NCBI RefSeq assembly: GCF_026683955.1
Contig: NZ_CP113343.1
Coordinates: 1,240,001 to 1,304,000, forward strand
DNA: 64,000 bases
Direction: 5' to 3'
DNA from: Arthrobacter sp. MMS18-M83
GTDB taxonomy: Bacteria > Actinomycetota > Actinomycetes > Actinomycetales > Micrococcaceae
The first letter of the stretch is position 1. Each line of letters starts with the position of its first letter. The notes beneath the pieces were generated by a model. That model was not told where the DNA came from. It was given only the letters and a program-made list of their open reading frames with translations, and made no database searches. Of the stretch, positions 3,202-47,870 are shown piece by piece. The translations under genes were made by a program, and so were the position numbers.

Positions 3202-3267
3202 CCCAACTGACTGGCAGTTGTTGTCGTATACAGGCCGCTAAACGACAACTACTGCGAGTTAGTTGGG
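3202..3267. repeat. Palindromic intergenic repeat, copy 1
   Basis: The 66-bp imperfect inverted repeat begins 3 bp after the transglutaminase stop. Its ends are CCCAACT and AGTTGGG, and the inner arms are GTTGTTGTCGT and ACGACAAC. Related copies lie at 43446-43511 and, interrupted, at 46091-46151 plus 47851 onward. It sits between a + strand gene end and the 3' end of gabD, so it may also serve as a bidirectional stop. This looks like a REP-type dispersed element. Confidence 0.75.
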
Positions 3268-43445: not shown

Positions 43446-43511
43446 CCCAACTAACTCGCATTTGTTGTCGTTATGAGCCGTCTAAACGACAACAAATGCG
43501 AGTTAGTTGGG
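43446..43511. repeat. Palindromic intergenic repeat, copy 2 (perfect arms)
   Basis: 27-base perfect arms begin CCCAACTAACTCGCATTTG and are separated by 12 bases (ATGAGCCGTCTA). This is the best-preserved member of the family and ends 32 bp before the phospholipase start codon. A transcript from further upstream would carry this hairpin in its leader. Confidence 0.9.
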
Positions 43512-46090: not shown

Positions 46091-46151
46091 CCCAACTGGC
46101 TCGCAGTTAACGTCGTTTAGACGCCTCATAACGACATTAAGTGCGAGTTAG
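46091..46151. repeat. Palindromic intergenic repeat, copy 3, interrupted by the IS110 element
   Basis: It starts CCCAACTGGCTCGCAGTTAA and has the central GTCGTTTAGACGCCTCATAACGAC (the family core in the opposite orientation). It breaks off at GTGCGAGTTAG. The missing end, TTAGTTGGGCGGGG, reappears at 47851 on the far side of the insertion sequence. Confidence 0.8.
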
Positions 46152-46189
46152 AGATATGAGGGGAGGAGCGGTCTAGCGGGGTTGCCTCT

Positions 46190-46317
46190 GGGTCCTTCTG
46201 GAGTCCATTTTCGCCGGGCGGATCCGGGCCGCCGGCTTGATGTGGTTTGTTCCGGCTTGTGGGGCGGACGGTCCGGATCCTGCATCCCGGCGGTGATGGC
46301 CGCTATCAGAAGGACCC
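46190..46317 (+). other. Structured left-end non-coding region of the IS
   Basis: GGGTCCTTCTG (46190-46200) pairs perfectly with CAGAAGGACCC (46307-46317). Inside it, GATCCGGGCC (46221-46230) pairs with GGTCCGGATC (46270-46279), with one mismatch. The result is a long stem with internal loops, of the size of an IS110 bridge RNA. However, I found no match to the target flanks here. It could also be a transposase-leader structure. Confidence 0.45.
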
Positions 46318-46422
46318 TGGAGTGTGGGCCGGGGCTGGAACCTTCTCTTCAAGTTGACGTGGGTTGTCCCCAGACTTGATCCATTGGGGCAGAGCCACAT
46401 TTGAAGTTTGGAGGTTCCAGCT

Positions 46423-47529
46423 ATGCACGAGCGTACTCACGTGGGCTTGGATGTCCACGCCCTCACGGTCGTCGCCTGCGCGATCGATGGCGAAACGGGC
46501 GAGATGTTCCGGACCCGGCTCACGCCGGACCACGGCGAAATCCTGGCCTGGGTCCAGGCGCTCCCGGGCCCGTCCCGGGTGGTTTACGAGGCCGGGCCCA
46601 CCGGCTTTGTGCTGGCCAGGGCGTTGCGGGCGGCCGGTGTTGATTGCGTGGTCGCGGCCCCGTCCAAGCTCCAGCGCCCCTCCGGGGACCGGGTGAAAAC
46701 GGACCGAAACGATGCCCTGCACCTGGCCCGGCTGCTGAAACTGGACCAGATCACCGAGGTCATCGTCCCGGATCCGGGGCAGGAAGCGGCAAGGGATCTG
46801 GTCCGGGCCCGGGAAGACACCCGCGGGGACCTGATGCGCGCCCGGCACCGCGTCTCCAAGCTGCTGTTGCGCCAAGGCATCCATTACACCGGCGGGTCGA
46901 CCTGGAGCCAGGCCCACATGGCCTGGCTCTACCGCCAGCGCTTCGATTCCCCGGCCCTGCAACTGAGCTACGACCTTGCAGTCGAGGCAGTCGCCGAGAC
47001 CCTGGACCGGCGCGAGCGTCTCGACAAAGAGATCACAAAGATCGCCTACGAGAGCCCGTACACCTCCGTGGTGAGGGCACTCGAATGTCTGCGCGGCGTC
47101 TCCACCCTGACCGCGTTCGGCCTGGCGGTGGAGATCGGGGACTGGAACCGCTTCACCGGCCGCACCATCGGCGCCTACCTCGGGCTGGTGCCCACCGAGA
47201 ACTCCTCCGGCCAGCACCGCTCCCAGGGCGGGATCACGAAGACCGGAAACTCCCATGCACGCCGGCTCCTGGTCGAGGCGGCCTGGCACCACCGCAGACC
47301 CTACGACCACCCCTCGGCATCGTTGCGTTCCCGTTGGGAGGCAGCCACCCCCGCGGCCCGGGCCCGGGCACAGGCTGGCAACCGTCGCCTGCACGAGCGC
47401 TGGCTCCTCTATCCGGAACGCCGGAAGCGGCCCGTCATCGCCAATGTCGCGATCGCACGGGAACTGGCCGGCTGGTGCTGGTCGCTGGCCAGCGAAGCAC
47501 AGGCCACCGCCGACCATCACAGGCCCTGA
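46423..47529 (+). CDS. IS110 family transposase (DEDD/serine recombinase)
   Basis: A 368-residue transposase with the N-terminal RuvC-like DEDD domain. The acidic residues are in HVGLDVHALTVVACAID, VVYEAGPTGFVLARAL and KTDRNDALHLARLLKLD. The C-terminal Tnp_20 domain contains the conserved serine in GGITKTGNSHARRLLVEAAW. The start ATG 46423 has GGAGG seven bases upstream. The length is complete and there are no internal stops. IS110 enzymes use an element-encoded RNA to choose donor and target sites. Confidence 0.95.
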   Translation: MHERTHVGLDVHALTVVACAIDGETGEMFRTRLTPDHGEILAWVQALPGPSRVVYEAGPTGFVLARALRAAGVDCVVAAPSKLQRPSGDRVKTDRNDALHLARLLKLDQITEVIVPDPGQEAARDLVRAREDTRGDLMRARHRVSKLLLRQGIHYTGGSTWSQAHMAWLYRQRFDSPALQLSYDLAVEAVAETLDRRERLDKEITKIAYESPYTSVVRALECLRGVSTLTAFGLAVEIGDWNRFTGRTIGAYLGLVPTENSSGQHRSQGGITKTGNSHARRLLVEAAWHHRRPYDHPSASLRSRWEAATPAARARAQAGNRRLHERWLLYPERRKRPVIANVAIARELAGWCWSLASEAQATADHHRP

Positions 47530-47569
47530 CACGTCCGGGATGTCTGCACCGGTGCTTCCCGCAGCGCGT

Positions 47570-47700
47570 GGAGCGAACTCGCGTCCCAACTATGAGTAAC
47601 CGCAAAACGGCCACGCTCGACCTTAGAGAAGCGAAATGCTCCAGCCGAACACCTCGTCCTGCGGTAACCAATCCGCGCATATTAGTCTGACCACGCCGTC
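47570..47700 (+). ncRNA. Candidate bridge RNA in the right end of the IS
   Basis: The sequence after the transposase contains AACTCGC (47576-47582) and CCCAACTA (47585-47592). These are exact reverse complements of GCGAGTT and TAGTTGGG, the left and right halves of the interrupted target. TTAGAGA (47623-47629) and CATATTAG (47678-47685) equal the element's own joined-end and right-end sequences. GCGTGG/CCACGC can close a stem around the first pair. Short guides for target and donor are what a bridge RNA must hold. The exact boundaries, strand pairing and fold are not established. Confidence 0.35.
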
Positions 47701-47783
47701 GCCAACGACACGCTGAGCCCCCGCCAGACACCCCGGCCACAAAGATGCGGACCCACGGCAAAAACAGCCCACCGCCCACATCA

Positions 47784-47822
47784 AGGAAGCGGTCCCAGGC
47801 TCACAACCCGGGACCGCTTCCT
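47784..47822. other. Strong hairpin near the IS right end
   Basis: 13-bp perfect arms AGGAAGCGGTCCC / GGGACCGCTTCCT with a 13-base loop, about 30 bp inside the right boundary. It could stop transcription leaving the element or serve as a subterminal recognition structure. Confidence 0.55.
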
Positions 47823-47870
47823 CCTGCACATTGACAGAACGAACTACATATTAGTTGGGCGGGGAAAGCG

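Follow-up and report, generated by a model that had tools for sequence, protein, structure and literature searches.

A putative bridge RNA encoded downstream of the transposase in an IS110-family element of Arthrobacter sp. MMS18-M83

The window analysed here, a stretch of 64,000 nucleotides of the Arthrobacter sp. MMS18-M83 chromosome (NZ_CP113343.1, positions 1,240,001 to 1,304,000), contains an IS110-family element that interrupts a repeat of its host. The element, its coding part and its target are arranged as follows (coordinates of the window).

46091..46150, + strand: left part of the disrupted host palindromic repeat (the target), from comparison of the flank with empty sites
46151..47853, + strand: IS110-family element, 1703 bp, from its flanks against empty sites and the alignment of relatives
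46333..46422, + strand: 5' leader, in which GGCTGGAACCTTC (46333-46345) pairs with GGAGGTTCCAGCT (46410-46422), hiding the ribosome-binding site
46423..47529, + strand: transposase, 368 aa from the ATG, with PF01548 and PF02371 and no internal stop
47854..47859, + strand: right part of the disrupted host repeat (GTTGGG), from the same comparison

The insertion interrupts the right half of an imperfect palindrome that is repeated at dispersed sites of the host genome. The two flanks, TGCGAGTTAG (46142-46151) and TTAGTTGGG (47851-47859), correspond to TGCGAGTTAGTTGGG, which the genome also contains elsewhere as an empty site; two uninterrupted copies of the repeat lie in the window itself, at 3202-3267 and 43446-43511. 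Across the 5.11 Mb source genome, TGCGAGTTAGTTGGG gives 130 half-site matches (66 + 64) with at most 2 mismatches, 13 of them exact, against 5 for a reversed control pattern. IS621 is reportedly also targeted to a dispersed palindromic repeat, a likeness to the target here. TTAG stands at both ends of the element (46148-46151 and 47851-47854), and we infer the exact limits, 46151-47853, by placing the crossover in analogy with the junctions of relatives. Six copies in the Mycobacterium MAG Bu41 (L010-L015) all have TAG at the left junction and CAA at the right one, which suggests strand exchange between A and G.

The transposase reads from the ATG at 46423 to the stop codon at 47527-47529 (the listed open reading frame, with a TTG start at 46408, has 373 aa). 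Its domains place it in the IS110 family in the wide sense: PF01548 (DEDD_Tnp_IS110) scores 54.8 bits for a cut-off of 29, PF02371 (Transposase_20) 63.7 for 21.3, and NF033542 222.5 for 140. Searched directly against the PDB, the single sequence gave no IS621 match, whereas a family profile of the transposase did reach IS621. A predicted model of the protein (pLDDT 84.7, with stretches 83-95 and 258-272 below 50) was compared by Foldseek, and the eleven best PDB chains all came from bridge complexes of IS621 (8wt6, 8wt9) and ISCro4 (9t56), with E values from 5.9e-13 to 1.7e-10 and TM-scores by query length of 0.65-0.68. Residues D10, E56, D94 and D97, which we take to be the DEDD tetrad, are invariant across 24 transposases, as are S262 and G263, presumably the SG pair. 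The predicted fold and these residues are those of a bridge recombinase.

Relatives were collected by a genome scan that found 297 transposase homologues, of which 80 were kept. These come mostly from Arthrobacter, Mycobacterium and kin, Rhodococcus, Nocardioides and other Actinobacteria; three MAGs are labelled otherwise (L021 Proteobacteria, L042 Trueperaceae, L071 Anaerolineales). At DNA level, some part of the element is matched in 93 of 198 genomes of the same genus. The comparisons below start from 110 candidates, that is 109 retrieved loci with a transposase hit and the window; the bridge-RNA anchor was recognised by script in 99, and the eleven loci lost include some with truncated right ends.

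We consider it highly probable, from comparison of these sequences, that the right end (47561-47713, + strand) encodes a bridge RNA, so that the element would be an RNA-guided DEDD recombinase system with its guide RNA directly downstream of the transposase. The proposed RNA and the remainder of the right end are laid out below.

47561..47713, + strand: bridge RNA core, from a covariance-model match
47569..47643, + strand: target loop, closed by the outer helix TGGAGCG (47569-47575)/TGCTCCA (47637-47643)
47576..47582, + strand: AACTCGC, scaffold, of which TCGC (47579-47582) pairs with GCGA (47631-47634)
47585..47592, + strand: right target guide CCCAACTA, complementary to TAGTTGGG of the right flank (top strand), from covariation in 77 elements
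47621..47626, + strand: left target guide CCTTAG, from covariation in 76 elements
47654..47660, + strand: right donor guide TCGTC-C-T, complementary with one bulge to AGACGA, the left end of near relatives
47660..47677, + strand: hairpin between the donor guides (TGCGG..CCGCG), its pairs unvarying in 35/35 relatives
47678..47685, + strand: left donor guide CATATTAG, the same as the right end of the element
47785..47821, + strand: strong hairpin GGAAGCGGTCCC..GGGACCGCTTCC, candidate 3' end of the transcript, without a T run
47831..47836, + strand: TTGACA, -35 box, which a circle junction would put 17-18 bp before the first hexamer of the left end

An alignment with six relatives (L009, L090, L091, L093, L094, L095; 80-84% DNA identity) already shows the right end, lost in L095, to be conserved except for two short slots and a variable hairpin loop. 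A covariance model, R1, was built from 35 of 41 candidate sequences in the alignment, the window excluded. It matches the window at 47561-47713 with 144.4 bits (E 1.3e-30), its remaining two matches in the window having E values of 1 and 2.8; searched on both ends of the element, it recognises the right one and has zero matches in the left one. Placement of a bridge RNA in the right end, as the initial annotation had proposed, is thus upheld. An Rfam search returned nothing at gathering scores.

The named structure is supported by the same 35 relatives: over 27 pairs, 92.2% are standard, against 86.7 in shuffled controls and 28-38 in slid ones (the structure, being drawn partly from these sequences, is favoured in the slid control), and doubly changed cells number 60 against 21.6 shuffled. 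For the outer helix, 58 arm pairs give 5.83 with their own arms and 5.23 with swapped ones (maximum 5.53 of 300). Both target guides face each other across one internal loop, between the outer (GGAGC/GCTCC) and the apical helix. TCGC/GCGA of the window becomes CCGC/GCGG in many relatives, the first pair of this helix being paired as aligned in 19 of the 35 and unpaired in 16. Farther downstream, the longest stem ahead of TTGACA averages 12.1 bp over 74 relatives, and 6.2 bp once the letters are shuffled.

Among the 29 loci L090-L118, R1 matched 25 at E 1e-10 or better, several of these being the same loci as training rows. The four without a match at that level are L095, whose right end is lost, and L111, L115 and L117, which were partial matches on entry. 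Relatives in Sphingobium and Pararhizobium, with transposase identity of 39-40%, also have the RNA downstream (L119 E 3.3e-9, L121 7.7e-6); L120 (E 0.013) and L127 (E 0.022) match weakly, and L122-L126 have no match at all. The transposase of L122, annotated IS5075, shares 23% identity over 359 columns with that of the window, and we assume IS5075 to belong to the IS1111 group. With stricter filters, 8 of 148 genomes drawn from the class, the source genome included, have an R1 match. Eight loci came out of the RNA-model searches; six have a readable right end, and in all six the guide matches the right flank over 4-5 nt. Four of them are new (L132-L135; in L135, left guide and left flank both read AAATAG), L131 has guide and flank as in L054, and L129 is a second element of the source genome itself (L129/L139; 158545-158705, minus strand, 89.1 bits), a distinct paralogue with a guide of its own, CACCT, that fits the right flank AGGTG. 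A remnant of a third bridge RNA lies in the same genome at 908605-908713 (38.4 bits).

The initial annotation had drawn its proposal from four strings of the right end, all of which are present: AACTCGC (47576-47582), CCCAACTA (47585-47592), TTAGAGA (47623-47629) and CATATTAG (47678-47685). Of 20000 random sequences generated from the 321-nt right end by a first-order Markov model, 6.1% contain the 7-mer on either strand, 1.0% the 8-mer and 0.1% both; since the strings were picked with hindsight, the 8-mer stands out but the 7-mer taken alone does not.

In the alignment with the six relatives, AACTCGC is constant, and the first slot after it, flanked by GCG and CTATG, reads as the reverse complement of each element's own right flank: CCCAA-CTA for TAG-TTGGG in the window, AACC-CTA for TAG-GGTT in L009, AAGC-CTA for TAG-GCTT in L091 and GCGA-CTA for TAG-TCGC in L090; L094 is a misfit, and in L093 the right end could not be read. 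Ahead of TAGA, the second slot also differs between elements; in several it matches the last bases of the left flank (AACTAG in L009, TCTAG in L091, TTAG in the window), in others, such as L090, less well. TTAG of the left guide, identical to the left flank end, would pair with the bottom strand. Rare core variants change jointly: in L073 and L068, the right guide contains CTG, the left guide TCAG and the left flank CAG.

The right guide was compared with the flank in 77 of the 99 rows, all with distinct right flanks (the 22 dropped had a flank that was absent, short, duplicate or with an N, or were the six Bu41 copies without guide anchor). Flank positions 1-6 are complementary in 65, 75, 73, 60, 32 and 16 elements, a total of 321/462 against a mean of 150.9 and a maximum of 185 in 2000 shuffles of the flanks; with one element for each of the 47 right-guide classes, the total is 204/282 (shuffled mean 85.1, maximum 118 of 5000). 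Contiguous matches from position 1 extend over at least 3 bases in 62 elements, 2 in one, 1 in two and 0 in twelve. Clear misfits are L094 (guide TCGCGA, flank TACGCGG) and L118 (TCAGTT, TAGTGGG); others, among them four Sinomonas flanks (L084, L086-L088), have a mismatch at position 1 and fit at positions 2-4. CCCAACTA thus holds as a target guide.

For the left guide, 76 of the 99 rows were used, the 23 others having no left end found or being duplicates. Guide and flank agree at position -3 in 70/76 (shuffled 53.4, maximum 62), at -4 in 43/76 (shuffled 22.0, maximum 35) and at T(-2) in 75/76 (shuffled 71.1); farther left than -4, agreement in these elements is at chance level. Apart from TAG, roughly two variable bases of the left guide are informative, and in the window the match is limited to TTAG. 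When the whole right end of 67 elements is scanned against the flanks, it beats shuffled pairings for the antisense right flank (6.36 vs 5.37, maximum 5.60); the sense left flank gives a weak excess that stays inside the shuffled range (5.34 vs 5.17, sd 0.08, maximum 5.43), and the two other orientations give no signal, the reverse-complement left flank scoring 4.85 vs 4.87.

These covariations point to a non-coding RNA with two guides directed to opposite strands of the target. Conserved structure taken by itself would equally suit a structured 3' UTR or regulatory RNA of the transposase mRNA, the element entering its repeat by protein-DNA recognition alone; we hold this very improbable, as such an RNA does not predict two slots that track their own host flanks, one per side and in opposite strand sense. 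We give even less credence to the original assignment of the four strings, with AACTCGC and CCCAACTA as target guides and TTAGAGA and CATATTAG as donor guides. All the strings are there, but AACTCGC occurs in seven distinct elements (9/99 rows) and finds its complement only in the left flank of the window, and reverse-complement matches to the left flank are at shuffled level. In homologues inserted in unrelated targets, AACTCGC remains unchanged, which rules it out as a guide and leaves it a strand of a scaffold helix, and the CCCAA part of CCCAACTA does change with the target. TTAGAGA occupies the slot that varies with the left flank, and contains the sense left target guide; its reading as a donor guide fails on L009, L091, L093 and L094, which keep TAGAG while their left ends read TAGACG or TAGGCG. 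With the left guide in sense orientation, the two guides bind opposite target strands, the right one the top strand and the left one the bottom strand, and the same-strand difficulty raised earlier disappears.

The guides for the joined ends of the element can be followed in the same way. To right ends of the form CATAT[C/T/G]AG corresponds [N]ATAT[C/T/G]AG in the RNA, with the same variable base in 74/75 non-redundant elements (C in 66, T in 7, G in 1); the donor role proposed for CATATTAG is confirmed here, as left donor guide. Left ends are mostly AGACG[G/A]TATG and the RNA carries [C/T]CG[T/C]C-C-T: in 58 elements the right donor pair is G-C in 33 and A-T in 19 (52/58), G-T in 2 and other in 4, and L028 combines a left end AGATCG with CGATC in the RNA. 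Two donor guides are thus indicated by one informative base each, the matches outside these bases varying too little for testing.

Joining of the ends would also create a promoter, as expected, if the left-end hexamers act as -10 box. TTGACA precedes the core G by 17 bases in 40 rows and by 18 in 38, and GACGGT or GACGAT is contributed by the left end in 68 of these 78 rows (which, like the 82 recognised left ends, include duplicate loci). At this place the window has GAGATA, as do L107 and L109. Its left end, AGAGATATG (46151-46158), is one base shorter than AGACGATATG of near relatives, a form shared by 3 of the 78 rows (the window, L107, L109), so that the hexamer of the putative junction promoter is shifted, and right donor pairing and junction promoter look impaired in this copy.

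The left end deserves separate consideration, since in the IS110 group the non-coding region is described as mainly upstream (PMC11187229). In the window it is long (about 270 nt) and highly structured, 46150-46425 folding at -142 kcal/mol, and it could be imagined to contain the guide RNA, the right-end matches being coincidence or leftovers. We see hardly any room for this. In 67 elements and four orientations, left ends match their own flanks no better than shuffled ones (e.g. 4.28 vs 4.26), in line with the initial annotation, which saw no target match there; it is the right end that exceeds shuffling and is recognised by R1. Moreover, 63 of the 82 left ends have only 100-156 nt, and most contain a leader sequestering the ribosome-binding site. 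In 70 elements, the 5' arm of this leader pairs with the ribosome-binding-site segment over a mean of 10.59 bp, against 8.99 with swapped arms (maximum 9.41 of 100); the stem has at least 9 bp in 62 elements and 4-7 bp in 8, and GGAACC/GGTTCC of the window clade is replaced by GGGGCC/GGCCCC in many others, as compensatory changes. We suppose that the leader is a translational lock, which may keep read-through transcripts from making transposase. A very stable long hairpin at 46190-46317 lies in a part of the left end apparently absent from the short left ends of relatives. The loop of the donor hairpin (47665-47674), which reads AACCAAT in the window and AACCAAC in most relatives, shows complementarity to the conserved leader motif GTGGGTTG (46358-46366); an RNA-RNA contact between AACCAA(C/T) and GTGGGTTG, noticed by eye and with L094 as a misfit, is possible.

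Comparison across relatives shows a conserved RNA structure, two-sided covariation of the target guides and one-base covariation of the donor guides, together with the location of the RNA and a host-repeat target. On this basis, CCCAACTA would pair with the top strand right of the insertion point and CCTTAG with the bottom strand left of it, TCGTCCT and, farther 3' beyond the invariant hairpin, CATATTAG would recognise the joined ends of the circular element, and the recombinase would exchange strands between target and donor near the shared TAG/CAG. Expression of the RNA, its binding by the transposase, the circular intermediate and catalysis we infer from the described systems, in which an RNA co-purifies with the transposase, has guides to top and bottom strand and can be reprogrammed (PMC11187229, PMC11208160). 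Very probably, then, the element finds its target by RNA, as described for other IS110/IS1111 elements.

The element shares features with both groups of the family. As in the seekRNA of the IS1111-group members ISEc11, ISPa11 and ISKpn4 (Siddiquee et al. 2024, PMC11187229), the RNA lies downstream of the transposase, the top-strand match is 5' of the bottom-strand match (right guide at 47585, left guide at 47621) and the two overlap at the insertion point; a circle-junction promoter, reported in the same source for the IS1111 group, is likewise predicted here. By RNA position and guide order, the element would work like the IS1111 group. However, IS1111 subterminal inverted repeats of 7-17 bp (PMC11208160) find no equivalent: the window has CATAT/ATATG, 5 bp, and the best form, CATATC/GATATG, 6 bp, is present in 21/99 rows, GGTATG standing instead in 45/82 left ends. 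The transposase, with 368 aa from the ATG at 46423 against 330-350 aa (PMC11187229), probably also departs from the published definition of IS1111.

Conversely, the bridge RNA of IS621, from the IS110 group (Durrant et al. 2024, PMC11208160), resembles the present case in the recombinase fold (here predicted), in its four guides, in left guides pairing with the bottom strand and right guides with the top strand, and in discontiguous right donor pairing. The IS110 group differs in having its RNA mostly upstream, and the IS110-type ISEc21 has the bottom-strand match ahead of the top-strand one (PMC11187229), whereas here the RNA is downstream and the top-strand (right) guide comes first. From the mapped guides, the element thus appears to fall outside the IS110 group in the narrow sense, with its upstream RNA and left guide first. 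Exceptions with an IS110-type transposase and a downstream non-coding region, including a 'green' group, were already noted in PMC11187229. The clade described here may belong to the 'green' group or to other IS110-type exceptions. ISAar29 is, by the naming rule, probably an Arthrobacter element. A bridge RNA has been predicted for it, among six elements of two groups (PMC11208160, Extended Data Fig. 10). Our search of journal papers, few of them from subscription journals, gave no title on the RNA of this clade.

In a Kocuria IS110 element, the upstream region has been taken as the seekRNA source (PMC12500396). Two Kocuria members of our set carry the RNA downstream of the transposase (the right guide of L045 fits its own flank over 4 nt, that of L049 fails at position 1), and actinobacterial IS110 elements need not carry their guide RNA upstream. 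A wider reading, which we put forward as doubtful, is that of a mosaic lineage spread across the Actinobacteria with relatives in Alphaproteobacteria, combining an IS110-like recombinase, an IS1111-like downstream RNA of reversed guide order, and a left-end lock perhaps opened by, or pairing with, the bridge RNA. If this were true, the left end would have been freed from carrying a guide and turned into a translational lock.

What had been a coincidence of four strings becomes a tested guide map in which all four guides are placed, and the RNA segments that need changing for retargeting are corrected. The relatives provide 47 natural right-guide classes with their targets, including copies that suggest where the exchange point lies, and the element adds a further bridge-RNA system seated in a dispersed palindromic repeat of its host.
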